From the NCBI GenBank assembly GCA_015231515.1, contig JADGBM010000008.1, forward strand, positions 1 to 58,461: a DNA stretch of 58,461 nucleotides, given 5' to 3'. How positions within the stretch are numbered: the first letter of the stretch is position 1; every line of letters starts with the position of its first letter. The DNA is from Desulfobulbaceae bacterium (GTDB taxonomy: Bacteria > Desulfobacterota > Desulfobulbia > Desulfobulbales > VMSU01). Under the pieces are notes generated by a model. That model worked only from the letters and a program-made list of their open reading frames with translations. It was not told the origin of the DNA and ran no database searches. This document shows, piece by piece, positions 2,463 through 24,783 of this stretch. Position numbers and translations under genes: made by a program.

Positions 2463-3689
2463 CTATTTTATTGAATCGTCACTCCTCTTTTTTAAATCTA
2501 TCAACGCCGCAGGCTTAAGACTCTCTCTCCCATACTTATCTGTAATCGAATCTACGGCTTCATTAAGATTTCTCCGGCAGGCGCCATTGCTTTTTTCTGT
2601 AACAAATAAACACGCCTGAACAGGTTTTGATCCGTCCTCAAAATTGGCAGTAGAGATCCCAACCAACCGCACCGGCTTTTTACCCGCCTGGGTCTGACCT
2701 AACAACTTTTTACTTTCAACATAAATCCTATGAGAGTCATCCGTTGATTCTTTTAGAGTTGTTGATCTGGTAACCTGCACAAAATCATAATATTTAACCT
2801 TGAGCATAACTGTTCGAGCTCGCAATCCATTCCTTCTAAGCCTACGGGCCACCTTAACGCTTATATGCAGCAACTTTTTACCAAGAGTATCCACATCAAC
2901 AATATCCGACTCAAAGGTGTCCTCATGACCAATTGACTTTACCGCACTTTCAGGAATGACCTCACGATCGTCGATTGCCATAGATGCTCTGTGAAGATGC
3001 GTTCCATGCTGGCCGAATTTTTTTTGAAGAATCTCCTGAGACAGTTGAGCCAGGTCGCCAATCGTTTTCACTCCCAGTTTAGCAAGCTCTCCTTGAGTCA
3101 CCTTTCCAACCCCCCATAGTTTACTTATTGGCAAGGGGGCAAGAAACTCACGCTCTTTGCCAAAAGGAACAATGGTAAGGCCATCGGGTTTGTCCATATC
3201 TGAGGCAATCTTGGCAACCAGCTTTGATGATGCGAGTCCGGCGGAAACCGTCAACCCTGTTTGTTGTTTAACAACCTGGCGAATGGTTTGGGCAATATAT
3301 GAAGCATCACCGAATAATTTTTCCGAGCCCGTCACATCTAAAAAGGCCTCATCAAGCGAAAGTGGCTCGACAAGAGGGGTAAAACCATTGAAGATCCCCA
3401 TTATCTGCTGAGACACCTCTATATATCGATCCATTCTCGGCCGGACAAACACTCCATGAGGACACCGTTTTTTGGCGATTACGATAGCCAGAGCAGAGTG
3501 CACACCATATTTCCTGGCCTCATAGGATGCCGCAGAAACAACCCCGCGATTCGAATCACCACCAACGATAACCGCCTTTCCACGCAGCGCAGGATCATCA
3601 AGCATCTCAACGGATGCATAGAAGGCATCCATATCTAAATGTATTATTTTTTTCTGCACCTTTCTCTTCCCATAGTTTACAGGTGTCAC
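2463..3689 (-). CDS. dinB: DNA polymerase IV (Y-family translesion polymerase)
   Basis: Error-prone Y-family polymerase that extends past lesions and misaligned primers. Near the N-terminus is IIHLDMDAFYASVE with the first metal-binding Asp; SLDEAFLDVT carries the catalytic Asp-Glu pair. The helix-hairpin-helix (LWGVGKVT) and little-finger domain follow. The longest frame starts at GTG 3689 (408 residues), but family alignment favours GTG 3659, giving VQKKIIHLDMDAF and 398 residues. A perfect 10-bp inverted repeat overlaps the upstream GTG, supporting the shorter form. No beta-clamp motif was identified with certainty at the C-terminus. Confidence 0.93.
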   Translation of the reverse strand: MTPVNYGKRKVQKKIIHLDMDAFYASVEMLDDPALRGKAVIVGGDSNRGVVSAASYEARKYGVHSALAIVIAKKRCPHGVFVRPRMDRYIEVSQQIMGIFNGFTPLVEPLSLDEAFLDVTGSEKLFGDASYIAQTIRQVVKQQTGLTVSAGLASSKLVAKIASDMDKPDGLTIVPFGKEREFLAPLPISKLWGVGKVTQGELAKLGVKTIGDLAQLSQEILQKKFGQHGTHLHRASMAIDDREVIPESAVKSIGHEDTFESDIVDVDTLGKKLLHISVKVARRLRRNGLRARTVMLKVKYYDFVQVTRSTTLKESTDDSHRIYVESKKLLGQTQAGKKPVRLVGISTANFEDGSKPVQACLFVTEKSNGACRRNLNEAVDSITDKYGRESLKPAALIDLKKRSDDSIK

Positions 3690-3704
3690 AAAACTGACAC
3701 CTGT
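3679..3704. promoter_or_regulatory. Perfect 10-bp inverted repeat at the dinB 5' end
   Basis: ACAGGTGTCA-N6-TGACACCTGT. It lies 20 bases upstream of the preferred dinB start and could be an operator for a damage-response repressor or an mRNA hairpin. The repressor is not identified. Confidence 0.45.
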
Positions 3705-3906
3705 CTGAGTTATCAGACATAATTTACCCAGCTATTCGTTATGATCAAGGTAATTATTGCCGCCCAACCGGTTAAAGCTCTTACCCGCCAGCCAAACACT
3801 TAATTCACCAAAAAGCAGATATACTCTTTTATTTTCAATACCTTACACAAATTAAATTCACCCAGGCACTACCAAAATCCCCGCGCCTTTTCGTTATCTG
3901 GACTAA

Positions 3907-3922
3907 TGGCACAATTTTAGCA
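3907..3922 (+). promoter_or_regulatory. Possible sigma-54 promoter of the diguanylate cyclase
   Basis: TGGCAC-N5-TAGCA keeps the GG and GC dinucleotides with the required 10-bp gap and has one mismatch to TTGCA. It lies 58 bases before the ATG of the GGDEF gene. Confidence 0.4.
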
Positions 3923-3980
3923 TTTATAACTTTTCATGAAATGCCGATAAATATGTGTATAGAACTCAAGGAATATAACA

Positions 3981-5009
3981 ATGAATATTGAAAATTTTTC
4001 GACTAGTGAAACAACAGAAGACAACTTCAGCTTGAATTCAAGCCTGGGCCTGAACAGCCTTGTTGTTGAACTGGAGCATTACCGCCGGCAATCAGAATGG
4101 CTATCACTGGTAAACGAACTTCATGGGAGATTGGCAGGTGCAGTCGATCTGCCATCAATGCTGGAAGCCTTTTCTGTTTGGCTTATGCCTCTTGTTCCAC
4201 ATGAACTTCTGGCTTACAATAACCAGGTACGCGAACGACTCCACTTACTTTGCTCCTGTCATGGCCCTGAACGGGAACGTGCCATGAAAATTGCCAAATC
4301 AGCCTTGAACAATGCACCTGCTTGTGAAAACTCCTGCTGTTGGACTGAAGAAGAGTTTTATATCCAGAGTTGGCAACTGGATGCTTTTCGAGGAAGTGGG
4401 TTACTCCTGCTCCTGCGAAAGGACAGGCAAATTGGTGAATATGAGTTACAACTTATCGCTAAAGGTCTGAAAATTCTGTGTGAACCACTCCAAAGGGCTC
4501 TGGAATACGAAGATCTCTATGAGCAGGCCAGCCGAGATGCTCTGACCGGCCTGGTAAATCGACGGGTATTCGATGAACGTATCGACCCAATCCTGGCCCA
4601 GTCAAAACGCCATGGCCATCCTGTCACCCTTGCCTGTATGGATCTCGACAAGTTTAAACACATTAATGACACTTACGGCCATGCTGTTGGGGATTTGGTT
4701 CTACAAAAGGTCTCATCAGCCATGGAACGAATGGTGAGAAGTTGTGATGTGCTTGCCAGAATGGGCGGCGATGAGTTCATGCTCATTATGCCCGACACCG
4801 ATCTGAAATCAGCAAAAATACTGGCCAACAGACTGTGCGAAAAAATCGGTAAAATAAGCATTTCAGCGCTCGATAAAGGCGAAATTGGCATAAGTATCGG
4901 ACTGGTTGAGTGGAACGCCAAATTCGACAAAAAACTGTGGATTAAAAGGGCAGATGAAGCTCTCTACAAAGCCAAATCAAATGGCCGCTCGAGAGTAAGC
5001 ACCCTTTAA
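3981..5009 (+). CDS. Diguanylate cyclase with an N-terminal sensory region
   Basis: A 342-residue soluble protein predicted to make the second messenger cyclic di-GMP from two GTP. Residues 1-170 are a GAF-like sensory region with several cysteines (CSCHGPE, CENSCCW) that could respond to redox or metal; this region is not confidently assigned. The GGDEF domain starts with DALTGLVNRR and has the intact active site GGDEF at 262-266. RSCD (253-256), five residues earlier, matches the RxxD inhibitory site, so product feedback is likely. No transmembrane helix or EAL domain is present. A sigma-54-like promoter lies upstream. Confidence 0.9.
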   Translation: MNIENFSTSETTEDNFSLNSSLGLNSLVVELEHYRRQSEWLSLVNELHGRLAGAVDLPSMLEAFSVWLMPLVPHELLAYNNQVRERLHLLCSCHGPERERAMKIAKSALNNAPACENSCCWTEEEFYIQSWQLDAFRGSGLLLLLRKDRQIGEYELQLIAKGLKILCEPLQRALEYEDLYEQASRDALTGLVNRRVFDERIDPILAQSKRHGHPVTLACMDLDKFKHINDTYGHAVGDLVLQKVSSAMERMVRSCDVLARMGGDEFMLIMPDTDLKSAKILANRLCEKIGKISISALDKGEIGISIGLVEWNAKFDKKLWIKRADEALYKAKSNGRSRVSTL

Positions 5010-5026
5010 GTTTTTGATCTACAGAG

Positions 5027-5281
5027 TTAAGCCCAGCAATATCGTTCAATGAGAGCATAGAGCTTGTCGGGATTAATTGGTTTGGAGATATAGTCGTTCA
5101 TCCCTTCCTTTAGACAGTTGTCCATATCCTGCTGAAAGGCGTGGGCAGTCATTGCAATAATTGGCAACTGCTTACCGCCAGCCTTATTCTCTAGCTCACG
5201 CAACTGACGGGTTGCCTGAAAACCATCTAATTCCGGCATTTGGATATCCATTAACACCAGATCAAAAGCCGCAAAAATATG
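5027..5281 (-). pseudogene. Response-regulator receiver domain remnant
   Basis: This frame encodes only the C-terminal two thirds of a receiver domain: FDLVLMDIQMPELDGFQATR with the phosphoacceptor Asp, IAMTAHAF with the conserved Thr-Ala, and YISKPI with the conserved Lys. The first strand and acidic pair are missing, and an in-frame TGA at 5282-5284 cuts the frame nine codons upstream of LMD. The LMDIQMP and MTAHA signatures are typical of the C-terminal receiver of hybrid histidine kinases. The remainder has been lost where serA now begins, suggesting a deletion. Confidence 0.75.
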
Positions 5282-5335
5282 TCAAGGTTAAACCACCGGA
5301 AACACCAGCTTTGAACCTAAAAACCCGAGCCGACA

Positions 5336-6505
5336 ATGAAAATACAAATATTAAATAGTATTGCCAGAGAGGGTCTTGATGTCTTTCCGAGTAGTTACGA
5401 AGTTGGCCCGGATATTACGGCACCCGACGGCATCCTGGTTCGCAGTTCACCTGTAGACACCGAACTATTCCCCTCCGCGTATGCCATCTCAAGAGCCGGA
5501 GCAGGTGTGAACAACATCACCGTTGACAAGGCAACGCAACAGGGAATTTGCGTCTTTAACACCCCCGGGGCAAACGCCAACGCAGTCGCCGAACTCGTGT
5601 TCATAATGCTAGGCGCCTATGCTCGAAACATCCACCTGGGTTTGCGTTTCTTTCAAGACCTTACAGACCTTGACGACGACCACATTGCCAGAGAAGTTGA
5701 GCAGAAAAAATCGCAGTTCAAGGGTTTTGAACTGGCAGGGAAAACTTTGGGCGTTATCGGCCTTGGTCAAATCGGTGTACGTGTTGCTAATGGCGGAACG
5801 TCCAGAGGGATGCGAGTGCTCGGCTTCGACCCCTATCCGGCCATGGCAAATATTCATGCGCTTTCTCCTGATGTTACCCTGGCTCGCTCTACCCAGGAAA
5901 TTCTCCGCGAATCCGACATTATTTCACTGCATGTCCCACTTAGCCAAAAGACTGAAGGCCTCGTCAACCAAGCGTTTCTTGAACAGCTGAAAGCAGATGC
6001 CGTCCTCATTAATTTTGCCCGTGGCAAAATAGTCGTCGACAGTGATATTATCAAAGCCTTGGACTCCAACAGATTACGATTTCACCTTACAGATTTTCCC
6101 AGCAGATTACTTTTAGGCCACCCAAAAGTAATCTGCACGCCCCATCTCGGGGCAAGTACTGAAGAGTCCGAAGAGCACTGCTCTGTTATGGCTGCCACAC
6201 AGCTTAAAAATTATCTCGAGCTTGGCTCTGTTACCCATAGCGTCAACTTTCCCACGGCAGAATCCATCCCCAAAGACGCTATCGCCTGCCGCCTCATCAT
6301 GATTAATCAGGACATACCCGGCATGATCGGCTTTGCCACCCAGGTGCTAGGCCGTCATGGCATTAACATTTCCAGTTACATCAACGAAAGCAACGGTCAA
6401 ATAGGCTATAACATCATCGATTTGGAGAGCCGTCCGTCTGAAGCATTAATTAAAGAAATTGAAAGTAACAAAGACGTTATTCGCACTCGCTCCATATTTT
6501 TCTAA
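5336..6505 (+). CDS. serA: D-3-phosphoglycerate dehydrogenase
   Basis: Catalyses the first step of serine biosynthesis, oxidising 3-phosphoglycerate with NAD. At 389 residues it is the short form. It has a substrate-binding N-lobe (RSSPVD, SRAGAGVNNI), an NAD-binding GLGQIG at 142-147, NFARGKIV with the substrate Arg, PHLGAS with catalytic His270, and a C-terminal ACT domain from about 318 that in homologues binds serine for feedback inhibition. No strong Shine-Dalgarno precedes the ATG. The usual partner serC is not next to it; a truncated receiver domain lies immediately upstream, so the original 5' context may have been deleted. Confidence 0.92.
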   Translation: MKIQILNSIAREGLDVFPSSYEVGPDITAPDGILVRSSPVDTELFPSAYAISRAGAGVNNITVDKATQQGICVFNTPGANANAVAELVFIMLGAYARNIHLGLRFFQDLTDLDDDHIAREVEQKKSQFKGFELAGKTLGVIGLGQIGVRVANGGTSRGMRVLGFDPYPAMANIHALSPDVTLARSTQEILRESDIISLHVPLSQKTEGLVNQAFLEQLKADAVLINFARGKIVVDSDIIKALDSNRLRFHLTDFPSRLLLGHPKVICTPHLGASTEESEEHCSVMAATQLKNYLELGSVTHSVNFPTAESIPKDAIACRLIMINQDIPGMIGFATQVLGRHGINISSYINESNGQIGYNIIDLESRPSEALIKEIESNKDVIRTRSIFF

Positions 6506-6666
6506 AATCCCCACATTCTCACACGGTCAATTAACCAGCACTCAACTTGACATTTTTGAGTCTCACTCTTACCTCTTTTGGTAGTTGTCTGGTTCAAATA
6601 GTTTTTAATACAGCGATGAAGCCTAGCTTCAGTGAGGCTCTAAATATTTGGGTCAAGGAGATGCCA

Positions 6667-9249
6667 ATGCAGATTGAAAAATTAACTTTAAAATCCCAGC
6701 AAGCCCTACAAACCGCCCAACAACTTGCCGAGCAGAATGGTCAGCAGGAGATTCTCTCTGCCCATTTACTTAAGGCGCTACTGCAACAGCAAGACGGGGT
6801 AGTCGTGCCAGTACTGCGCAAAATTGGAACTGACCCGCGTCAGGTAGAAGATGCCCTTGCAGCACATCTGGCAAAACTACCCAAAGTCAGCGGCAGTGGT
6901 TTTGGCCAGGTGTATCTTTCAAACTCCTTGAAGAAAACACTGGATAAAGCCTTTACAATAGCAGCCAACATGCAGGATGACTATGTAAGCCAGGAGCATA
7001 TCTTCATCGCTCTGGTCGATGAAAACTCAGACATCTCAGCACTGCTCAAAACCAATGGCATCTCTAAAGATGGTTTTCTAAAGGCACTGGTCTCCTTCCG
7101 AGGCAACCAGCGAGTCACGGATCCGGATCCAGAGGGTAAATATCAAGCTTTGGAGAAATATGGCCGCGATCTGACTGCTCTTGCCAAGCAGGGAAAGCTC
7201 GACCCTGTTATCGGCAGAGATGATGAAGTTAGAAGGGTTGTGCAGGTTTTAGCCCGGCGCACAAAAAACAATCCGGTATTGATCGGTGAACCCGGTGTCG
7301 GTAAAACTGCTATTGTTGAAGGACTCGCCCAACGTATTGTCATGGGCGATATCCCTGAGACTCTAAGCAATAAACAAGTTGTTGCACTCGACATGGGGGC
7401 ACTTATTGCCGGTGCTAAGTATCGGGGAGAGTTTGAGGACAGACTCAAGGCGGTACTTAAAGAGGTTCAAAAACGTGAAGGAGAAATCATCCTCTTTATC
7501 GACGAAATTCACACCCTCGTCGGTGCAGGTGCTGCTGAAGGCGCCATGGATGCCTCAAATATGCTCAAACCGGCTCTGGCCAGAGGAGAGTTGCATTGTG
7601 TTGGCGCAACAACCATAAAGGAGTTTCGAACCATCGAGAAAGACCCTGCCTTAGAGCGCCGTTTCCAACAGGTTCTGGTTGCAGAGCCCTCTGTTGAAGA
7701 TACCATTGCAATTCTACGGGGCATCAAAGAAAAATATGAAGTACACCATGGAATTCGCATTACTGACTCGGCAACTGTAGCTGCGGCAACACTTTCAAAT
7801 AGATATATCACAGACAGATTTCTGCCCGACAAAGCAATTGATCTGATCGATGAGGCCAGTTCGAAGCTGCGAATCGAGATAGACTCAATGCCCACAGAGA
7901 TTGACGAGATTGATCGAAAGCGTATTAAGCTTGAAATCGAACGGGTGGCCTTAAAAAAAGAAAAAGACAGTTCCTCTAAAGAGCGGCTCTCCAAGTTAGA
8001 CGCGGAACTCGCCGATATCAATGAAAACCTTAACAGCATGAAAGGCCACTGGACTCTCGAAAAAGAGACCATAAAAAAAATTCGCGACATCAAAAGTCGC
8101 ATTGATGAGGCCCGCATGGAAGAACAGCGCGCTGAACGTATGGGTGAGCTGAGCAAGGTTGCCGAAATTCGATATGGCGTAATCGCTGGACTGGAGAAAG
8201 AGCTCACTAACGAGAATGATCAGCTCTCCAACATCCAGCAAGACAAGAAAATGCTCAAAGAGGAAGTTGATGAGGAAGATATCGCCCAAGTTGTCGCGAC
8301 TTGGACCGGAATTCCCATGGATAGGCTACTGAGCGGCGAAAAAGAAAAGCTTGTCCATGCCGACGAACTCCTAGCCAAAAGGGTCATAGGCCAAAAAACA
8401 GCTATTCAGGCAGTTGCCAACGCCGTCCGCCGTTCACGAGCAGGCCTGCAGGATCCGGATCGACCGCTGGGCTCCTTTATTTTTCTTGGTCCGACAGGGG
8501 TCGGCAAGACCGAACTGGCTCGAACGTTATCCGAATTTCTGTTCAACACCGAACGAGCCATGATCCGCCTGGATATGTCGGAATTTATGGAAAAACATTC
8601 TGTGGCGCGGTTGATTGGTGCTCCCCCGGGCTATGTTGGTTATGACGAAGGTGGCTACCTGACAGAGGCCGTTCGCAGACAGCCTTATTCAGTAATACTC
8701 TTTGATGAAATTGAAAAGGCTCACCCTGATGTGTTCAATGTTCTTCTGCAGATTCTTGACGATGGACGCATGACCGACGGCAAAGGAAGAACTGTTATTT
8801 TCAAGAATACCATTCTGATTATGACTTCTAATTTAGGTAGTAATCTAATCATGGAAATGGCAGAGGACTCAGAAGAGCTTAAGGCCGCACTCGACAAACT
8901 GCTGCATCAACAGTTCAAACCGGAATTCCTCAATCGTATCGATGAGATAATAACGTTCCACGGCCTGAGCAAAGCCGATCTTGCCCAAATCATCGAGATA
9001 CAGCTTTCGCTCTTGCAAGCTCGTTTGCACGAACAAAATTTTTCTTTAGAGTTAACTGCCGCCGCCAAAGAGTTCCTGATCCAGGCCGGTTATGATCCAT
9101 CCTTTGGGGCCAGGCCTTTAAAAAGAACAATCCAGCGGCACATTCAGGATCCACTGGCAATGAAGATACTTGAGGGAACATTTTTGGCGGGAGATACGAT
9201 TATGGCGGACTGCTCTGACTCAAACAAAATTATATTTTCAAAGAAATAA
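6667..9249 (+). CDS. clpB: ATP-dependent disaggregase ClpB (Hsp100)
   Basis: Hexameric AAA+ chaperone that extracts polypeptides from aggregates together with DnaK; grpE-dnaK are elsewhere in the window. It has an N-terminal Clp repeat domain (1-150), the first ATPase with GEPGVGKT near 206 and Walker [10 protein letters not shown], a coiled-coil middle domain (about 400-530, rich in E/K/R), and the second ATPase with GPTGVGKT near 608 and [11 protein letters not shown]. The frame is open from 6547, but AAGGAG 6 bases before ATG 6667 and family alignment give 860 residues, the usual size. A TTGACA at 6547 may be part of its promoter. Confidence 0.96.
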
Positions 9250-13989: not shown

Positions 13990-14277
13990 CTATACTATAC
14001 TTTTGTAATGAGCGCCATCCGAACACAATAAAACTTTCACTTCACTTACAGTTATAACACGGCGTTTATGGCCAAAACGAACCGCGCCCGTCAGATGAAC
14101 CTTACTCCGGGCATATCTAGAAAAATCTATATCGGGGTTTTTCGTATCATGTTCAAGGATATATTTATTCTCATCATCGGTTAAAAGGACAAAACGAACC
14201 GGATTCCCAGTTGAATCAAAGTCATCTACAGTAATAATTCCTTGTAAACCTATGTTTTTCTGTTCTATGGTAGTCAT
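13990..14277 (-). CDS. Hypothetical protein, 95 aa, OB-fold-like
   Basis: Starts MTTIEQKNIGLQGIITVDDF. Alternating strands (VRFVLLTDDENKYIL, KVHLTGAVRFGHKRRVITVSEVKVL) suggest a small beta barrel such as an OB fold. It has one cysteine and no membrane segment. It follows the LysW-like gene in the same direction with a 76-base gap and may be the last gene of the polyamine transcript. The start has only a weak ribosome binding site. The function cannot be assigned. Confidence 0.55.
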   Translation of the reverse strand: MTTIEQKNIGLQGIITVDDFDSTGNPVRFVLLTDDENKYILEHDTKNPDIDFSRYARSKVHLTGAVRFGHKRRVITVSEVKVLLCSDGAHYKSIV

Positions 14278-14353: not shown

Positions 14354-14578
14354 CTAATAATCGTACTCAAGCCCTTCAAAGTTTTCATCATCATATCTAT
14401 CCACAACCATTGTCAAAACCAGAGGGTGTCGTTCTTCAAGTATGTATTCAGTGTCACACTCAGAGCAGACCACAACCTCTCCCTTACCAAAATAAAATTC
14501 AATTGGAATTTCGCCATAACAGATTTCACAGCGAGCAAATCGAGATTCATTTTCATAAGACCTACTTCTCTTTTCCAT
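14354..14578 (-). CDS. LysW-like zinc-ribbon small protein
   Basis: A 74-residue acidic protein with CEIC-N17-CSEC. The layout matches the amino-group carrier LysW: CxxC followed by G-E-[LV]-V-V-C-x-x-C, a pair like PLVL, and an acidic tail. However, the tail ends ENFEGLEYDY instead of the EDWGE whose final Glu carries substrate in LysW, so carrier activity is not supported by that key residue. AGGAGG lies 8 bases before the ATG. It lies 42 bases downstream of speB in the same direction, in a region that also has a RimK/LysX-type ligase. It could equally be an unrelated zinc ribbon. Confidence 0.6.
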   Translation of the reverse strand: MEKRSRSYENESRFARCEICYGEIPIEFYFGKGEVVVCSECDTEYILEERHPLVLTMVVDRYDDENFEGLEYDY

Positions 14579-14620: not shown

Positions 14621-15523
14621 CTAAAAAGTATGACCAACACCTAACAAGTACTGCTTAGTATTAACTTCACTTCGAGTCACATAACCCATTATATTATAAA
14701 TCAATTGCGCGGCAGTAAAGGCAGCACCATGCAGTTGCGGGATCGGGGCGAATTCAACGACATCAAACCCTATGCAGATTCTCTCATCGAGGATCTTTTC
14801 GATTAGCCATAGTGCCTGATACCAATTCAATCCACCCGGCACCGGCGTTCCTGTCGCCGGCATTAAAGCAGGGTCAAACACGTCAATATCAAAGGTTATA
14901 AAAATTTTATCCGGAAAACCAGGGGGCAGCACAAAACCTTCAATGCCCCCTTTAAAGATCTCTTCAGCGTCCAGGTAGGGAATTTTATTGTCTTTGCGAA
15001 AGATATGCTCTTCATGGCAATAACTACGTGTTCCGAACTGGAAAAACGGGATGTTTCGCTCATGTATTCGTCTCATCACACATGCGTGACTGTATTGACT
15101 TCCCTGATAGCTGTTTCGAAGATCGGCATGGGCATCAAAGTGCACAACACCGTAACTGGCATATCTGTGTTCAAGGCCGAGTATACTGCCAAGGGTGACC
15201 GTATGCTCGCCCCCGACAACAACAGGGATTTTCCCATGGGCAACACAGTCACCCACCCGTGCAGCAATACGCTCCATGATTTTAGTTTCAGAGCCGCTGC
15301 AGTTCACAGATGGGGCGGTATACAAGCCGAAGCTGGCCGGAATATTTTTCCCGTCAAACAGCTCAAGTTGGCAGGAAGCATCAAGAATAGCCTGTGGTCC
15401 AAGTGATGTGCCCTGGCCATACGAAGTCGTTTTCTCGTAGGGGACAGGAATGACGTGAAAAAGGGCCTCCTCAGGGGGCGAAGGTGCGACATCATCACCA
15501 TGAAAATTCGTTATTGTCGTCAT
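14621..15523 (-). CDS. speB: Agmatinase
   Basis: A 300-residue ureohydrolase that splits agmatine into putrescine and urea with a two-manganese centre. Metal motifs are present in order: GGEHT, DAHAD (VVHFDAHADLR) and DIDVFDP (ITFDIDVFDPALMPATGTP). The last includes the substrate loop. It starts 3 bases after the stop of the carboxyspermidine decarboxylase gene, so it is the fourth gene of an operon with speA. Together they supply putrescine from arginine without ornithine decarboxylase. Confidence 0.93.
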   Translation of the reverse strand: MTTITNFHGDDVAPSPPEEALFHVIPVPYEKTTSYGQGTSLGPQAILDASCQLELFDGKNIPASFGLYTAPSVNCSGSETKIMERIAARVGDCVAHGKIPVVVGGEHTVTLGSILGLEHRYASYGVVHFDAHADLRNSYQGSQYSHACVMRRIHERNIPFFQFGTRSYCHEEHIFRKDNKIPYLDAEEIFKGGIEGFVLPPGFPDKIFITFDIDVFDPALMPATGTPVPGGLNWYQALWLIEKILDERICIGFDVVEFAPIPQLHGAAFTAAQLIYNIMGYVTRSEVNTKQYLLGVGHTF

Positions 15524-15526
15524 GGC

Positions 15527-16681
15527 CTACGAAAGCCTGTTCTTAAAATCATCATAACCAAACTCCCTAATCACCTTCAGATCACCATTATTAAAGAGGG
15601 CAATCGTCGGCAGTCGAACACCATTAAACGTTGTTGTTTTAACCATACTGTAATGAGCCATATCCGTAAAAACCAGCCGGTCCCCAACAGCAAGAGGCCT
15701 ATCAAACGAATAATCACCAATTATATCTCCGGCCAGACAACTAATGCCACCTAGACGATAGGTATTTGGCTTTTCTAAAGGCTCTCCTGAACCAATTATA
15801 TGAGGCCGATAAGGCATTTCCAGAACATCAGGAAGATGCGTTGAAGCAGAGGCATCGAGAATTGCGATGCGTGCTCCGTTGTTAAATATATCGAGCACAG
15901 TTGCCACAAAGATACCGGCGTTAAGCGCCACAGCCTCACCCGGCTCCAGGTATACATCCACCTTATATTTATCTCTCAAATCCCTAACAAGGGAGCAGAG
16001 ATGCTCCACATTGTAATCAGGTCGGGTTATATGATGACCACCGCCCAGATTGATCCAGTCCACTTCATGAAAATAGCGGCCAAATTTATTTTCAACTGCG
16101 CGCAAGGTTCGTTCAAGGGCGTACGAATCCTGCTCGCAAAGGGTATGGAAATGAAACCCGGATATGCCGCTAAGGTCAACTCCGGCAATCTCCTCAGCCC
16201 GAATACCAAGACGCGACTCGGGACGGCAAGGATCATAGAGGGCTGTTTTTGTTTCAGAGTGCTCAGGATTAAGTCGCAACCCAAACTTAACTTTGCGCAC
16301 ATGCCCCAGACAGACGTCTTTGAATCGCTGCCATTGACCAATGGAGTTAAAAACTAGGTGATCGCTGACCTCCATAATTTCGGCTAAGGTCTTTTCGGTA
16401 TAGGCAGGTGAAAAGGTATGGACTTCACCGCCAAACTCCTGTCTCCCCAGCAAGGCCTCATCAATCGAACTGGCGCACGTTCCGGCCAGAGTCTTGTTCA
16501 AAATCGGAAAGACACTGAACATGGCAAAACCCTTTAAAGCCAAAAGAATTTTCGCTTTGGTTTTTTGCTGCACGTGATCGAGCACTGCCAGGTTACGCTC
16601 AAGCGCCTGCTGGTCGACAATAAAACAGGGAGAAGGAACCGTGTTCAAGTCGAAATTGATGGTGTCGTCAGTTACGATCAC
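15527..16681 (-). CDS. nspC: Carboxynorspermidine/carboxyspermidine decarboxylase
   Basis: A 384-residue PLP enzyme of the alanine-racemase fold that removes CO2 from carboxyspermidine (or carboxynorspermidine) to give the triamine. LALKGFA carries the PLP lysine K50; FHFHTLCEQ, NLGGGHH and LEPGEA form the cofactor and substrate pocket, with DASASTHLPDVLEMPYRP near the C-terminal active site. Its ATG overlaps the stop of the upstream dehydrogenase by 4 bases. Since agmatinase in the same operon makes putrescine, the product is more likely spermidine than norspermidine. Confidence 0.92.
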   Translation of the reverse strand: MIVTDDTINFDLNTVPSPCFIVDQQALERNLAVLDHVQQKTKAKILLALKGFAMFSVFPILNKTLAGTCASSIDEALLGRQEFGGEVHTFSPAYTEKTLAEIMEVSDHLVFNSIGQWQRFKDVCLGHVRKVKFGLRLNPEHSETKTALYDPCRPESRLGIRAEEIAGVDLSGISGFHFHTLCEQDSYALERTLRAVENKFGRYFHEVDWINLGGGHHITRPDYNVEHLCSLVRDLRDKYKVDVYLEPGEAVALNAGIFVATVLDIFNNGARIAILDASASTHLPDVLEMPYRPHIIGSGEPLEKPNTYRLGGISCLAGDIIGDYSFDRPLAVGDRLVFTDMAHYSMVKTTTFNGVRLPTIALFNNGDLKVIREFGYDDFKNRLS

Positions 16682-17877
16682 AAATCTACTCCTGCAAGGT
16701 CGCCCTCGTACTCAACCCAAGGCAGGCCATGGATAGTAAGTTTCTCCATAAACGGCTCTGGATCAAACTGCTCCATGTTAAAGACACCCTCTCCTCTCCA
16801 CTTACCGGTAAGCATCATCATTGCCCCGATCATTGCCGGCACGCCCGTTGTGTACGAAACCGCCTGAGACTTCACCTCTTTATAGCACTGCTCGTGGTCG
16901 CAGATATTATAGATATAGTAGCTCTTTGCCTTGCCATCTTTTATGCCCTTGATCAGGCAGCCTATACAGGTTCGCCCCTTTGTGAGCGGCCCGAGGGAAC
17001 TCGGATCAGGAAGCACTGCCTTTAAGAACTGTAGCGGTATGATCTCCTGCCCCTGGTAGTTGATGGGCTTAATACCCGTCATGCCAATTCCCTGAAGAAC
17101 ATTGAGATGATTGAGGTAGTTATCAGAAAAAGTCATCCAGAAACGGCCCCTTTTGATTTCCGGGATATGTCGGACTAATGATTCCAGCTCTTCATGATAC
17201 AGAAGATATATTTTCTTAGGGCCAATTCCTTCAGGGAAATCAAAGGTCTGGCAGTGGCTCAGTGGCTCAGTCTCCTTCCAGACACCATTTTCAAAGAACT
17301 TGCCGCGTTGGGTAACTTCTCGGATATTAATTTCGGGATTAAAGTTTGTGGCAAATGGCTGACCATGATCACCAGCATTGCAATCAATAATGTCTAAGGT
17401 GTGAATCTGGTCAAAATGTTTTTTCTTGGCCCAGGCCGTAAAAACATTTGTCACCCCAGGATCAAAACCACTGCCCAGAAGTGCCATGAGACCTCTATCC
17501 TGAAAGCGCTGCTGATAATCCCACTGCCATTTGTAGCAGAATTTCGCCTCATCTGGCGGCTCATAATTTGCCGTATCCAGATAATCCACTCCCGTTTCAA
17601 GACAGGCGTCCATAATGTGCAGATCCTGGTATGGCAACGCAACATTAACAACCAGTTGCGGGCCAAACTCTTTTATCAGACTGACCAGTTCAGGGACGTT
17701 ATCAGCGTCTACCTGCTCGGTGCGTATTGGACTCTTGATCTGGCTGGCAATCTGTTCGCATTTGGAAACAGTGCGGCTTGCCAGGCAGATCTCACTGAAA
17801 ACCTCTGGCACCTGAGCACATTTATGGGTAACAACTGACCCGACACCGCCTGCACCAATTATTAAAACTCGTGACAT
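16678..17877 (-). CDS. Carboxynorspermidine/carboxyspermidine dehydrogenase (saccharopine dehydrogenase-like)
   Basis: A 399-residue NADPH-dependent enzyme that condenses putrescine (or diaminopropane) with aspartate semialdehyde. It has an N-terminal Rossmann motif, VLIIGAGGVGSVV, with VNVALPYQD, VDYLDTANYE and GSGFDPGVTNVF, typical of the LYS1/CANSDH family. AAGGAG lies 7 bases ahead of the ATG. It sits 33 bases after speA and overlaps nspC by 4 bases. The linked genes define the aspartate-semialdehyde route to spermidine, known from Vibrio and Campylobacter, rather than the S-adenosylmethionine route. Confidence 0.9.
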   Translation of the reverse strand: MSRVLIIGAGGVGSVVTHKCAQVPEVFSEICLASRTVSKCEQIASQIKSPIRTEQVDADNVPELVSLIKEFGPQLVVNVALPYQDLHIMDACLETGVDYLDTANYEPPDEAKFCYKWQWDYQQRFQDRGLMALLGSGFDPGVTNVFTAWAKKKHFDQIHTLDIIDCNAGDHGQPFATNFNPEINIREVTQRGKFFENGVWKETEPLSHCQTFDFPEGIGPKKIYLLYHEELESLVRHIPEIKRGRFWMTFSDNYLNHLNVLQGIGMTGIKPINYQGQEIIPLQFLKAVLPDPSSLGPLTKGRTCIGCLIKGIKDGKAKSYYIYNICDHEQCYKEVKSQAVSYTTGVPAMIGAMMMLTGKWRGEGVFNMEQFDPEPFMEKLTIHGLPWVEYEGDLAGVDL

Positions 17878-17910: not shown

Positions 17911-19842
17911 TTACTCTTTTTCAAAATATGTGTAACCGCGTAACCCCTCGTTGAAACAGCTGAGAATTGTTTTGCGGTCTTTTGTGGTAATAAAGTTTTG
18001 ACGAATTGAATCCTCCGCAAAATCTTTCATTCGTTTCTTGATCGCCTTCACGTCATATTCCACGTACGACAACACGTCCTCGACAGAATCGCCTTCAAGT
18101 TCGCGCACAAAGTCATACGTGCCATCACTTTGAATGTTTATGGAAACCACGTTAGTATCACCAAACAGATTATGGAGGTCGCCCAGTGTCTCCTGGTAGG
18201 CACCAACAAGAAAAACACCCAGGTAATACTCTTCACCTTTTCTCAGTTCATGTAAGTGAATTGTTTCCCTGGCATGAGGGTGTGATGGAAATTTTGTTAT
18301 TTTCCCCTCACAGTCGCAGGTAATATCAGCGATTATGGCGCTCCGGGTAGGGGCTTCGCCCAGGCGATGAATAGGTGTAACCGGAAACAGCTGGCCTATA
18401 GCCCAGACATCAGGTAGAGATTGAAACAGACTGAAATTCCCATAGTAGATATCAGGAATAAGTTTTTCAATTTGTTCTATTTCTTCAGGGACATAATCAA
18501 GCTCACTAGCCACCTTAGTAATTTTTATCAGAATGTGCCGGATAAGGTCATCGGCAATTGCCTTCTCACGCATAGTAATCTGGCTGTTCTTAAAAAGCTG
18601 CTGCGCCTGACTTTTGTAAAAAAACGCATCGTTGTAACATTCCTGGATATCTTTTGCCGAAACCATGTTGTAGGTCGACAGGAGATTATCAAGCAGATCA
18701 TAGGTGGTTTTCGGCAGATCCACAGGAATTGGATGCGGGGTAACTTCCGTAACATCTAAGACGTTAAAAAGGAGTACCGAATAATAGGCTACAGTAAAGC
18801 GTCCAGACTCTGTCACAATTGTTGGATGCGCGATATTGTTCTTATCAAGAACCGAGGCAATGGTTTCGACAATATCACAACAATACTCTTCAACTGAATA
18901 GTTACGACTTGAATGATAGTTTGTTTTTGATCCATCATAGTCAACTGCAAGTCCTCCACCAAGGTCAAGAAATCCCATCGCCGCACCCTCTTTCACGAGC
19001 TCTTCGTAAATACGGCATGCCTCAATAACCCCGGCGCGAATATCTTGGATATTAGGAATCTGCGACCCGATGTGATAGTGCTGCAACTGGAGACAGTCAA
19101 GTTTATCGTCTTCTTTTAAGCGGTCAATCACATCAATAACCTGGCTCATTGTAAGACCAAAAACACTCGCCTCACCACCAGATTCAGCCCACTGCCCTTC
19201 TGCTTTCGTCGATAATTTTATGCGAAGTCCCAGCAGAGGACGAACACCGATTTTTTTGGCCCTTTCCAGAATCACTTCAAGTTCGCCGGGCATCTCCAGG
19301 ACAAAGAAGCATTTCAGCCCCATTTTCGTTGCATAAAGGCCCAGGTCAATAAACTCTTCATCTTTGTAACCATTACAGATCAGGCAGGCATCACGGTTAT
19401 CAAGCATTGAAATTGCGGCAATAAGCTCGGATTTGCTTCCGGCCTCAAGGCCATGATCATACTCTCTGCCAAACTGGGTAATAGCCTCAACAACCTGTTC
19501 CTGCTGATTAACCTTAATGGGAAAAACACCTTTATATTTACCTGTATAACCAACCTCTTTAATGACCTTGTTAAAACTCTCATGCAGCCTTTTTATCTGA
19601 GAGCCAAGTATATTCTCAATTCGAAGAAGCACAGGCATCGCAAGTCCACGCTCCTCAATACCTCTTGCGATTTCAAACAGACTGATCTTCACCCCATTGT
19701 CTTTCCCCAAAGGAGTGATCACAACCTCGCCAAACTCATCCACGGCAAAATAACCAGCACCCCATTTATCGATGCCGTAAAGATTAGCTGCGTCTTCAAC
19801 TGTCCATTTTTTCTTTTTAGTCATAGCGTTATTCAGTACCAT
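17911..19842 (-). CDS. speA: Biosynthetic arginine decarboxylase
   Basis: A 643-residue PLP enzyme converting arginine to agmatine. The N-terminal half is the alanine-racemase-like barrel with FPIKVNQQ (PLP lysine) and HIGSQIPN; LDLGGGLAVDY binds the phosphate. The C-terminal part (ITCDCEGKI, VGAYQETLGDLHNLFGDTN) matches SpeA. ATG 19842 gives the longest form; ATG 19824 (MTKKKKWT) is an alternative start with no clear difference in ribosome binding site. It is the first gene of the speA-dehydrogenase-nspC-speB operon. A consensus sigma-54 promoter lies about 100 bases upstream on the same strand. Confidence 0.94.
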   Translation of the reverse strand: MVLNNAMTKKKKWTVEDAANLYGIDKWGAGYFAVDEFGEVVITPLGKDNGVKISLFEIARGIEERGLAMPVLLRIENILGSQIKRLHESFNKVIKEVGYTGKYKGVFPIKVNQQEQVVEAITQFGREYDHGLEAGSKSELIAAISMLDNRDACLICNGYKDEEFIDLGLYATKMGLKCFFVLEMPGELEVILERAKKIGVRPLLGLRIKLSTKAEGQWAESGGEASVFGLTMSQVIDVIDRLKEDDKLDCLQLQHYHIGSQIPNIQDIRAGVIEACRIYEELVKEGAAMGFLDLGGGLAVDYDGSKTNYHSSRNYSVEEYCCDIVETIASVLDKNNIAHPTIVTESGRFTVAYYSVLLFNVLDVTEVTPHPIPVDLPKTTYDLLDNLLSTYNMVSAKDIQECYNDAFFYKSQAQQLFKNSQITMREKAIADDLIRHILIKITKVASELDYVPEEIEQIEKLIPDIYYGNFSLFQSLPDVWAIGQLFPVTPIHRLGEAPTRSAIIADITCDCEGKITKFPSHPHARETIHLHELRKGEEYYLGVFLVGAYQETLGDLHNLFGDTNVVSINIQSDGTYDFVRELEGDSVEDVLSYVEYDVKAIKKRMKDFAEDSIRQNFITTKDRKTILSCFNEGLRGYTYFEKE

Positions 19843-19942
19843 CCACTTTCTGACTTCAGTGGAATTGAGATTACTCGGATAATGACACCGAGGGATAACA
19901 ACCTACCCTCATGTAAAATGTTATCTGAACGTTGGTCTACCT

Positions 19943-19958
19943 AGCAAAGTCGGTGCCA
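19943..19958 (-). promoter_or_regulatory. Sigma-54 promoter of the speA polyamine operon
   Basis: The minus strand reads TGGCAC-CGACT-TTGCT, a complete match to the consensus TGGCAC-N5-TTGCW with the GG and GC pairs 10 bases apart. Transcription would start about 12 bases beyond the GC, leaving roughly a 90-base leader before the speA ATG. Sigma-54 promoters need an activator bound upstream; candidate sites lie 60-210 bases away. Confidence 0.82.
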
Positions 19959-20009
19959 CACATATAACATACTGTTATCATAAGATATTTCAGTTAGCCT
20001 CACAGACAC

Positions 20010-20030
20010 ATCGGAACATGAAGTTCCGAT
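20010..20030. promoter_or_regulatory. Upstream activator site 1 (GAAC-N5-GTTC)
   Basis: ATCGGAAC-N5-GTTCCGAT, perfect 8-bp arms. Its centre is about 65 bases upstream of the -24 element of the sigma-54 promoter, a usual enhancer distance. Confidence 0.7.
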
Positions 20031-20114
20031 ACCTGTGACGTATGCCCATTAATTTTGGAATTAATCAAAATTAATGGTCGTAATTAGTTGATAAAACAGT
20101 ATAAAATAGAACAA

Positions 20115-20131
20115 AGGAACTACAGGTTCTT
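20115..20131. promoter_or_regulatory. Upstream activator site 2 (GAAC-N5-GTTC)
   Basis: GGAAC-TACAG-GTTCT. It shares the GAAC-N5-GTTC core with sites 1 and 3. Its centre (20123) is exactly 30 bp from that of site 3, about three helical turns, so both would face the same side of the DNA. Confidence 0.65.
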
Positions 20132-20144
20132 GTTTAACGATAAA

Positions 20145-20161
20145 CGGAACCACAAGTTCTT
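20145..20161. promoter_or_regulatory. Upstream activator site 3 (GAAC-N5-GTTC)
   Basis: GGAAC-CACAA-GTTCT. With site 2 it forms a 30-bp direct repeat (each unit ends GTTCTT-N-TTTA). It ends about 50 bases before the start of the enhancer-binding protein gene, so it could also serve autoregulation. Confidence 0.65.
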
Positions 20162-20209
20162 TTTTATAGAAAAATATTGGCCACCGGCCAACAGCAAAAA
20201 GGAGCTCGT

Positions 20210-21616
20210 GTGAAAAATAGTCTGGTGATCAGCAAAGATCCGGAAGTATTTTCTCTATTCAGAGAGATGAGCGCAAAAGGCAGCAATCTTTTATCGCCAG
20301 CCTCTTCATTGGCCGAAGGAATCGAGATCATTAAGAGATCTCGGTGTGATTTGATTTTTATCGATATGAAGATTTTAAATCAGGCAGCCGCCTCCGGTGG
20401 ATATAAGGCCGTACTGCAATCCTTCTGGATACTCTATCCCTCTGTTGAAATTATCGTAATGACCTCCCAGAAAATGCTCAGGGAGGCTGTGAAAGCTGTC
20501 AAACAAGGGGTTAGCGATTATATCACCTACCCTCTTGTTTCAGACGAAATCCGCCTGGTGGTCAAGAGTATTAATGAGTCCCAAAAAGTACAATCTGAAC
20601 TTGATTATTTGCGTGAAGAGACCTGGGACAAAGACTCGATCACTCTTTCCCAGACACGCTGTGCAGCCATGCAGCAGGTTTTCAATAACGTCCAATCCGT
20701 ATCTTCCACAAAAAGTACCGTGCTTTTAACCGGCGAGACAGGAACCGGCAAGGGGGTACTAGCAAAAATTATCCACAAATTGAGCAACAGAAAAAACGAA
20801 CAGTTTATCAATGTCCATTGTGGCGCTATCCCCGACACTCTTTTAGAGAGTGAACTTTTTGGCCATGAAAAAGGTGCCTTTACCGGGGCAATTCGGCGTA
20901 AACTCGGAAAATTTGAGATAGCAGAAGGTGGAACCATCTTCCTCGACGAGATTGGCACAATCACACCGGCCGCCCAGATCAAACTGCTCCAGGTTTTACA
21001 AGATAGCACATTCCAGCGTGTTGGAGGGGAAGATTCCATTGAGGCAAATATCCGAATCATTGCCGCAACCAACGTTGAACTCAAGCAACTCTGTGATGAG
21101 CAAAAATTCAGAAATGATCTGTACTATCGACTCAATGTTTTTCCGATAGAGCTTCCTCCTCTCCGAGATCGGAAGGAAGACATTCCGCTCTTGATTGAGG
21201 TGTTTCTGGAACGGCTCAACAAATTTCAAACAAAAAACATCTTCGATATCCACTCCCAGGTAATTACCGCTTTTCTTAACTACTCATGGCCGGGAAACAT
21301 CCGTGAACTCGAAAACGTAATGGAGAGAGCCTACATTCTCGAAAAATCCTCTGTCCTCATGCCCGATAGCTTCCCGGCCGAACTGTTTATGGAGCAGGAC
21401 GCCCTTTCCCTGGCCAAAATAGACACCATGCTGCCCTTGACTGAAGTCAGAAAGAGAGGCGTGGAAGAGATTGAGCGGCGCTATCTCAAAGAAATACTCG
21501 AAAAAAACATGGGAAAAATCAACAAAAGCGCTGAGGCTTCAGGCATTACAACAAGGCAGCTTCACAAGTTGATGCTGCGGCACGGATTGCACAAAGAAGC
21601 ATTCAAAACACACTGA
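20210..21616 (+). CDS. Sigma-54-dependent enhancer-binding protein with pseudo-receiver domain
   Basis: A 468-residue NtrC-family activator. Residues 1-120 are receiver-like: FIDMK supplies a possible phosphoacceptor, but the acidic pair is reduced to SKDPE, so classical phosphorylation is doubtful. The AAA+ domain has GETGTGKG (Walker A), ELFGHEKGAFTGA with the sigma-54-contacting GAFTGA loop, IFLDEIGT (Walker B) and WPGNIRELEN. A Fis-type helix-turn-helix closes the protein (KINKSAEASGITTRQL). The frame opens at TTG 20177, but GGAG 5 bases before GTG 20210 decides the start. Its divergent position to a sigma-54 promoter and three palindromes makes it the likely regulator of polyamine synthesis. 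No sensor kinase is adjacent. Confidence 0.92.
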   Translation: MKNSLVISKDPEVFSLFREMSAKGSNLLSPASSLAEGIEIIKRSRCDLIFIDMKILNQAAASGGYKAVLQSFWILYPSVEIIVMTSQKMLREAVKAVKQGVSDYITYPLVSDEIRLVVKSINESQKVQSELDYLREETWDKDSITLSQTRCAAMQQVFNNVQSVSSTKSTVLLTGETGTGKGVLAKIIHKLSNRKNEQFINVHCGAIPDTLLESELFGHEKGAFTGAIRRKLGKFEIAEGGTIFLDEIGTITPAAQIKLLQVLQDSTFQRVGGEDSIEANIRIIAATNVELKQLCDEQKFRNDLYYRLNVFPIELPPLRDRKEDIPLLIEVFLERLNKFQTKNIFDIHSQVITAFLNYSWPGNIRELENVMERAYILEKSSVLMPDSFPAELFMEQDALSLAKIDTMLPLTEVRKRGVEEIERRYLKEILEKNMGKINKSAEASGITTRQLHKLMLRHGLHKEAFKTH

Positions 21617-22619: not shown

Positions 22620-23471
22620 TTAGCAGATAGTTTTGTGCCAGATATTCATGCTTTCGATGTTGCCTGAGATATTGGTATTATTTTTGAGTCTCCCCCCTAA
22701 CTCATAGCCGAGCTTGGAGAAAGTTATGTTAATTCCGGCGGATTTCGCTCTTGCAATTGTATAGGCCGTTCTGATCCCCTTTTTTTTCATCTCTTTTTCC
22801 ATTCGAAGAAGGAGATGTACCCCGAGGCTATTGCCACGCCACTTTGGCAGTGTTGCGAAATCAGTCATTTCAACGTTTTGGGATGTCACATCAATTTCAG
22901 CAGAAGAAAGAGCAATAAGCCGCCCATTTTTTTCAATCCCAAAATAATCGACATTACTCTGCATGCTGTCTTTAAGAAACAGGGGGTCATGGATTGGAAA
23001 GGGGTAGGTTTGGAAAACCTTTTTGTAAATTGTTGCCATTATTTCAACATCCTCTTCTTTACATCGATGCAATCTGAACAACTCTTTATCCAACGATTCG
23101 TTGGTACTGCCAGATTTATTAAAGGCAAGGCGAAGTATTTTCTTGATATCTGCTGCATCAGGCTCTGAAGCACGTTCTTCATCAAGGTAATACCCCATAA
23201 AAACACCGGCGATTGCACCATTAAAGAATCGGGGAATTGAAGCTTCTTCGATATACCCTTCACGTACAAATTGTTTAGAATAATCAGCAGGAATCTTCAC
23301 AAATATCTTTGAGTATTCATGACGTTCTGCCATTTTTACCAAATCTGAAGGCAGCGACCGGGGCAGACTGTTGCCAACCTTCATTAAATAGATGCGATCA
23401 TTGAGAGGCCCATGCTGGATAATTGAACCATCGGGAAGTTCTTTTACCTTATCTGGTGGTTGTTTGGACAT
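22620..23471 (-). CDS. ablB: Beta-lysine N6-acetyltransferase
   Basis: GNAT-family enzyme that acetylates beta-lysine to N-epsilon-acetyl-beta-lysine, a compatible solute first known from methanogens. The C-terminal half holds the GNAT fold (TDFATLPKWRGNSLGVHLLLRM, the acetyl-CoA loop); the N-terminal half is the AblB-specific domain (DRIYLMKV, FVREGYIEE). The open frame extends to 23525 inside ablA, but ATG 23471 with GAGGAT upstream gives 283 residues and a 7-base gap after the ablA stop. The pairing with ablA supports the function strongly. Confidence 0.9.
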   Translation of the reverse strand: MSKQPPDKVKELPDGSIIQHGPLNDRIYLMKVGNSLPRSLPSDLVKMAERHEYSKIFVKIPADYSKQFVREGYIEEASIPRFFNGAIAGVFMGYYLDEERASEPDAADIKKILRLAFNKSGSTNESLDKELFRLHRCKEEDVEIMATIYKKVFQTYPFPIHDPLFLKDSMQSNVDYFGIEKNGRLIALSSAEIDVTSQNVEMTDFATLPKWRGNSLGVHLLLRMEKEMKKKGIRTAYTIARAKSAGINITFSKLGYELGGRLKNNTNISGNIESMNIWHKTIC

Positions 23472-23478
23472 ATTGTTG

Positions 23479-24783
23479 TTATCCTCTTCGGCCATGACGC
23501 GAATTATTTTTGGGAACCAGGGCAATCATATTATTGCTGTCAGCCAGTAGTTTCTCAATTCCTAAAGAACGGGTTTCATCTGCATCCTCAAGAGAAAGTT
23601 GCAAGTCACACTCATCGCAATTTCTTTTACAAAATGTGGGTTCATAAGAGTCCGGTTCTTTGTAGGTTGTGATCACGCCTTCATAATTTCGCAAAACAAC
23701 TTTATTGGTAGACCAGGAGATTAGATAATTTGGCATCACGGGGATCTTGCCACCTCCACCTGGTGCATCAATTACATAGGTTGGAACACAAAATCCGCTT
23801 GTATGACCGATAAGACTCTCGAGGATTTCAATACCTTTACCAACCGGCGTTCTGAAGTGATTAAGCCCCTCCGAGAGATCGCATTGATACAAATAGTATG
23901 GCCTCACGCGGTTTGCGACAAGTTTGTGAAATAGCGAACGCATAATTCTTGAACAATCATTAACACCCGACAAGAGGACAGTTTGATTGCCAAGTGGGAT
24001 ACCAGCGTCCGCCAACTTTTTCAAAGATTCTTTCGATGAGGTTGTCAGTTCACGGGGATGATTGAAATGGGTATTAATCCAGATCGGACTATGTTTTTTC
24101 AACATTGCAACTAATCGGTCTGTGATTCGATATGGAAGAACAACAGGCGTCCGTGTTCCAATTCGAACCACTTCCACGTGGTCAATCATCTTTAATTCAG
24201 TAAGAATCCAATCCAGATAATCGGTTGACAAAAGAAACGGATCGCCTCCACTCAAGAGAACATCTCTTATTTGAGGCGTTTGCCGAATATATTCAATTCC
24301 TTTCATAATTTGATCTTTTCCAGGTATGGTGTCCCGGTCTCCGACTTGGCGTTTTCTTGTACAATGTCTGCAGTACATGGAACACATGTTACTGACCAGC
24401 AGCAGCACCCGATCCGGATATCTGTGCGTGAGCCCGGGGACAGGACTATCTGCATCTTCATGCAGAGGGTCAACCATATCGGTATCTTGAATCTCAAGTT
24501 CGTTGATCACCGGAAAACTCTGCTTGAAGATTGGGTCTTTCTCTACGTCATCAGTTTTTATAAGGGAAAGATAATAAGGTGTTATGGACATCGGGAATTT
24601 ATTGACAATCGTCCGAAAATCACGACGTAAATCCTCTGAAAGCTCAATGTCCAGGAGTCTTTCAAAGGTATCCACATCCTTGATGCAGTGTTTGATCTGC
24701 CACTGCCAATCTTTCCATTTGCCGACCGAATCAAAGCCAATCTCGTTAAATATATCTTGTTGCTGTGTGCTAAGCATTTCCAT
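23479..24783 (-). CDS. ablA: L-lysine 2,3-aminomutase
   Basis: Radical SAM and PLP enzyme that moves the alpha-amino group of lysine to the beta carbon. CSMYCRHC (C134, C138, C141) is the CxxxCxxC motif for the [4Fe-4S] cluster. TRKRQVGD and [10 protein letters not shown] follow, and [14 protein letters not shown] supplies the PLP lysine. Late cysteines (FCKRNCDEC) may bind zinc as in clostridial KamA. At 434 residues it is of usual length. AAGGAA precedes the ATG. With ablB it forms a two-gene osmolyte operon, pointing to a saline or fluctuating habitat; ablA is preferred over the catabolic kamA because of that partner. Confidence 0.94.

Follow-up and report, generated by a model that had tools for sequence, protein, structure and literature searches.

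The divergently transcribed sigma-54 enhancer-binding protein REG very probably acts on the adjoining polyamine operon through GAAC-N5-GTTC palindromes in the window (the whole stretch of DNA analysed, 58,461 bases). Such sigma-54 control had been proposed in a first-pass annotation of this DNA, and it is supported by the sites, the promoter, the near-fixed geometry between them, their co-occurrence with REG, and the presence of the array before other polyamine operons, all of which are established at the level of sequence. The relevant features of the window are:

13990-14277, minus strand: orf95, a small protein of ~95 aa whose homologues are the most frequent phylum-wide target of REG
14354-14578, minus strand: LysW-like small zinc ribbon with the acidic tail ...LEYDY, homologues of which lie under the same promoter in relatives
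14621-15523, minus strand: speB, agmatinase (TIGR01230, 218.8 bits, cutoff 174.3)
15527-16681, minus strand: NspC, carboxy(nor)spermidine decarboxylase (CANSDC; TIGR01047, 492.7 bits, cutoff 409.05)
16678-17877, minus strand: CASDH, carboxyspermidine dehydrogenase-type enzyme (PF03435/PF16653; NF043000, 426.5 bits, under the 800-bit equivalog cutoff)
17911-19842, minus strand: speA, biosynthetic arginine decarboxylase, first gene of the operon (TIGR01273, 713.8 bits, cutoff 624.1)
19944-19958, minus strand: sigma-54 -24/-12 promoter TGGCACCGACTTTGC(T), an exact match oriented toward speA, with an equivalent in relatives
20014-20026, no strand assigned: distal predicted activator site GAACATGAAGTTC, separated from the downstream -24 element by 55 bp
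20117-20129, no strand assigned: inner predicted activator site of the pair, GAAC-N5-GTTC
20147-20159, no strand assigned: outer predicted activator site of the pair, spaced 30 bp from the inner one
20210-21616, plus strand: REG, sigma-54 enhancer-binding protein with an atypical receiver (PF00158, PF25601, PF00072, PF02954; orthologue alignment)

In the proposed mechanism, REG would bind the palindromes, which lie upstream of the -24/-12 promoter (19958-19944), and, via DNA looping, would remodel the sigma-54 RNA polymerase into an open complex, thereby switching on the six-gene operon speA-CASDH-nspC-speB-lysW-like-orf95, both the activation and the extent of the operon being predictions. 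The output of the operon would be the conversion of arginine to agmatine, then to putrescine, and further to spermidine via the carboxyspermidine route. Site binding, looping and open-complex formation with sigma-54 are the standard mechanism of the protein family of REG, and this mechanism fits every feature found.

The gaps among the four enzyme genes do not exceed 33 bases, and those before the two small genes are 42 and 76 bases; such short gaps make a single transcript for all six genes likely. The operon combines a CASDH-type dehydrogenase (assigned by Pfam, with NF043000 below its cutoff) with an NspC-type decarboxylase, the pair that characterises the carboxyspermidine pathway, and from the presence of speA and speB in the same operon the product is presumably spermidine, with putrescine as the acceptor. 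The LysW-like gene and orf95 were absent from the first-pass annotation. On its other side REG is adjoined by ablA/ablB (22620-24783), genes for the osmolyte N-acetyl-beta-lysine. No GAAC-type sites were found before the ablA/ablB of the window, and therefore these genes are not claimed as targets of REG, unlike the KamA homologues that are REG targets in other families. The window also contains RimB/RimK at 13159-11751.

The TGGCAC-N5-TTGCT promoter facing speA, as first annotated, was found as an exact match at 19958-19944 on the minus strand, and TGGCACCGACTTTGC matches exactly only once in the window; taken alone, an exact match of the TGGCACCGACTTTGC type is poor proof of a promoter. The three annotated GAAC-N5-GTTC palindromes, two of them 30 bp apart, are indeed present. 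They are the only three in the 58,461 bases, all of them within the speA-REG intergenic region, compared with 0.81 expected, and three were reached in 3 of 100 shuffles. In the 3.4-Mb draft genome of the window (G000), which belongs to a relative of sulfate-reducing bacteria, the site pair is unique, genome-wide site counts being counts of pattern matches. Since the arrangement of sites and promoter is conserved in relatives, chance is excluded. The same genome carries one sigma-54 gene (PF04552, 205.6 bits). No sigma-70-like promoter toward speA, which the annotation had named as evidence against its proposal, was found in 19700-20400. The fold of the speA leader RNA (19824-19932) is not unusual (z -1.14), and no Rfam matches were found across 10-30 kb of the window.

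REG starts with GTG at 20210, while TTG at 20177 is also possible. Its earlier description as an NtrC-type protein with intact GAFTGA and helix-turn-helix (HTH) agrees with the Pfam domains (sigma-54 activation, receiver, Fis-type HTH) and with the orthologue alignment: the AAA+ sigma-54 activation domain matches PF00158 at 4.1e-67, GETGTGKG and GAFTGA are invariant (GSFTGA in some distant orthologues), and the HTH is conserved. A -24/-12 target promoter, upstream sites and sigma-54 in the genome accompany these domains, as expected for an enhancer-binding protein of this class. When compared with the NCBIfam equivalogs, REG scored far under every cutoff. Orthologues in the order share at least 56% identity over most of the protein, whereas other enhancer-binding proteins mostly share at most 40%. 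In the search of 395 genomes of the phylum, the orthologues were separated from other hits by a gap of 547 versus 423 bits; they occur in 44 genomes, G000 included, with two in G489. REG is a member of a single phylum-wide orthologous group.

In the layout of the array, two sites are spaced ~30 bp from each other, a further one lies distally, and ~157 bp separate the pair from a -24/-12 promoter; over 10 families of the phylum show this layout together with a REG orthologue. In the REG loci of the order the array lies upstream of REG or, in L054-L056, downstream of it, toward the target, and the distal site is kept in most relatives of the order, either exactly or with 1-2 mismatches in the extended palindrome. 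Conservation of the motifs together with the regulator, on which the first-pass annotation had staked its proposal, was thus observed: the exact pair was present in 15 of 60 genomes with REG and in 0 of 60 without it, and a relaxed pair in 41 of 60 and 6 of 60, respectively (Fisher p about 4e-11, among related genomes). A position weight matrix trained on 41 sites from the order's REG loci was applied to 44 REG flanks of genomes that do not belong to the order; it detected the pair in 24 of them, where 0.9 would be expected, with best scores of 30-37 compared with a shuffle maximum of 16.5. At ~20 of these 44 loci no pair exceeded the 99% shuffle threshold in the 1-kb flanks. The distance from pair to promoter was 149-160 bp in 34 of 58 combinations, versus 2.2 expected if uniform. 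Because of the relatedness of the genomes there are fewer independent events than the p-values suggest, and more weight attaches to the spread over many families. A strict pattern of palindrome plus promoter was set aside; it matched in 8 of 17 genomes only, and its match away from REG in G036 (contig C83) is probably due to chance. The exact pair at L172 (G307, contig C22), without a fitting promoter or target, was also treated as chance.

Carboxyspermidine-type operons lie under the array beside REG in G000, G060, G035, G078, G096 and G026, and in the window as well as in G035, G026 and G096 the gene nearest the promoter is a polyamine gene. In G041, an array in trans, 24 kb from REG, precedes lysW-speA-CASDH-CANSDC. 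In other, more distant families, where SAM-decarboxylase (SpeD) genes stand under the array, it is followed by SpeD (over the TIGR03330 cutoff) and agmatinase in G408, by orf95 genes, SpeD and agmatinase in G483, and by SpeD-family proteins together with GNAT, ATP-grasp and PLP-decarboxylase genes in G177 and G273. The SpeD protein of G177 scored under the AdoMetDC cutoff and may have another activity. Because SpeD homologues can have turned into ornithine or arginine decarboxylases (PMC10407285), these targets may differ in their products. Polyamine genes without sites were seen in the REG-containing genomes G036, G145, G009, G030, G024, G013, G132 and G098, and the nearest relative, G060, has a second complete polyamine gene set (L095, 4124-9634) without REG sites; these sets speak against exclusive control by REG.

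Of the well-formed arrays, 40 are followed by a gene; the genes that follow include orf95 in 27 cases, KamA/ATP-grasp in 15, polyamine genes in 8, LysW-like genes in 8, MscS/CorA/MdoG-type genes in 5, and GroEL in 2, as counted by automatic labels that miss some operons, e.g. CASDH in L048. MdoG (G273, G300), MscS (G310, and G041 by sequence reading), CorA (G177) and chaperonin (G177, G307) targets were checked by Pfam or by reading; in G464 a DUF481 gene lies behind a pair without a fitting promoter. In most of the phylum-wide loci orf95 is found near REG. The earlier view of REG as a regulator dedicated to polyamines is therefore too narrow and does not hold: sites are absent at the polyamine genes of several REG-containing relatives, the commonest target is orf95, and KamA/ATP-grasp, glucan, channel and chaperonin genes are targets as well. 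From the functions of the neighbouring genes, it is possible, and we propose it tentatively as the most economical reading, that REG adjusts cell polycations and the envelope to osmotic or ionic conditions, because polyamines, beta-lysine-type compounds, periplasmic glucans, and mechanosensitive and Mg channels share that meaning. The GroEL, GlgA and PALP/DUF1611 targets have no obvious fit to such a role. A retropepsin/ATP-grasp system related to RimB/RimK has been tied to hypo-osmotic growth in Pseudomonas aeruginosa (PMC12239564), a link whose bearing on the osmotic role is suggestive only.

The same counts, with orf95 behind 27 of 40 arrays and polyamine genes behind 8, bear on a rather different reading, in which the real business of REG is peptide or amine ligation by orf95, the LysW-like protein and ATP-grasp ligases, while the polyamine genes are passengers, though still transcribed. 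The position of orf95 near REG in most loci and the site-free polyamine genes of several REG-containing genomes agree with it; nevertheless, we find it rather doubtful, since the polyamine genes lead after the promoter in the window and three other genomes (G035, G026, G096), and two unrelated polyamine routes, of the CASDH and SpeD types, came under the array in separate families, which makes passenger status unlikely. The array might also serve mainly for autoregulation, i.e. repression of REG, with speA transcribed independently. Autoregulation is common among activators of this class, and only ~50-95 bp separate the pair from the REG start downstream; however, the array is located downstream of REG and faces the target in L054-L056, L138 and L142, and arrays in trans occur without REG beside them, so that we hold this explanation to be highly improbable.

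With activation of the polyamine operon by REG as the preferred reading, the signal, for which the first-pass annotation suggested arginine or polyamine and which may be osmotic or polycation status, is probably sensed without classical aspartate phosphorylation; this step and the osmotic role are the weakest of the scheme. The lack of a full acidic pocket, annotated earlier for the receiver of REG, extends to all orthologues: none of 59 has Asp at the first position of the acidic pair, and none has Lys where that residue is otherwise conserved. REG hence does not show the full set of acidic pair, acceptor Asp and Lys of a classical response regulator, and with neither acidic pair nor Lys in any orthologue classical phosphorylation is unlikely. 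An acceptor-type Asp is nonetheless present in 56 of the 59, as would suit an ordinary response regulator whose altered receiver still takes phosphate from an orphan kinase. In view of the two altered positions, and with no kinase identified among the window neighbours in the part of the ORFs searched, we regard this alternative as improbable.

Among known systems, REG resembles the NtrC family (NtrC, NtrX, ZraR, AtoC) in its receiver, AAA+ domain with GAFTGA and Fis HTH, as well as in its palindromic upstream sites and -24/-12 promoter, but differs in its low equivalog scores, in a receiver without the acidic pair or Lys, and in having its own site, GAAC-N5-GTTC, and its own regulon. AtoC of E. 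coli, a sigma-54 activator, has been described as an antizyme that inhibits ornithine decarboxylase (PMC3118216), and so shares with REG a connection to polyamines; however, AtoC controls atoDAEB and inhibits an enzyme, with no such link to CASDH operons, and REG scores 348 bits on NF008469, for which the cutoff is 714. In Desulfovibrio vulgaris, which belongs to the same former class (Deltaproteobacteria) as the window organism, the sigma-54 regulome is described as local regulons of mostly one to four operons adjoining the gene of the enhancer-binding protein (Kazakov 2015, PMC4641369), and the main text does not mention polyamine, aminomutase or GAAC. In the literature searched, the coverage of which was incomplete, we found nothing joining the carboxyspermidine route and sigma-54, and no matching described regulon. 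An enhancer-binding protein with its promoter is nothing new as a kind; what seems new here, in the sense that it was not found in the literature searched, is the regulon with its geometry and its small-protein targets. In a phylum whose genomes each encode dozens of enhancer-binding proteins that are still uncharacterised, the array offers a regulon code that is simple to search for. It also links polyamine synthesis with genes of the osmotic and beta-lysine types, and suggests two uncharacterised small-protein families, orf95 and LysW-like, as the regulon core.

For orf95, no match was found in Pfam, NCBIfam or PDB. An AlphaFold model (two sequences) had a mean pLDDT of 48 and was unusable, although its strand order is compatible with an OB-fold. 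Paralogues of orf95 with apparent signal peptides adjoin the cytoplasmic form in L130 (10699-11103), L131 (6124-6444), L137 (4690-5073) and L153 (9953-10243), and part of the system may therefore be periplasmic. The zinc ribbon PF21344 was matched by 13 of 13 LysW-like members at E<1 (best 1.4e-9), the window member scoring 20.5 bits against a cutoff of 27. Like the LysW/ArgW carriers, the LysW-like protein appears to be a small zinc ribbon with two CxxC, and its profile matches LysW in the PDB (3wwl) at 1.6e-7. The tail motif of LysW is EDWGE, with a C-terminal Glu for substrate attachment, whereas the LysW-like tails mostly end in Tyr, Phe or Asp (EEDEY, EYDY; LEYDY in the window); among the confident members only that of L044 has a C-terminal Glu, and none has EDWGE. 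The acidic tails, often with EEDEY/EYDY at the end, resemble tubulin tails rather than the LysW tail. Homologues occur in L043-L047, L049-L052, L057, L088 and L195, within or close to operons under REG control in the window's order. The broadest reading would join an undescribed phylum-wide REG regulon for polycation and osmotic balance, governed by a phosphorylation-independent sensor, with a new tail-modification or amine-ligation system of orf95, LysW-like, RimK/RimB and tyrosine-carboxypeptidase-like proteins coupled to polyamine supply; it is unlikely to hold in full. In L195 of G078 (3460-8518), a REG-type array precedes two LysW-like genes and a fusion gene, divergent from RimB/RimK; the fusion gene joins an N-formylglutamate amidohydrolase with a tyrosine-carboxypeptidase-like (MATCAP/QEGLA) domain.
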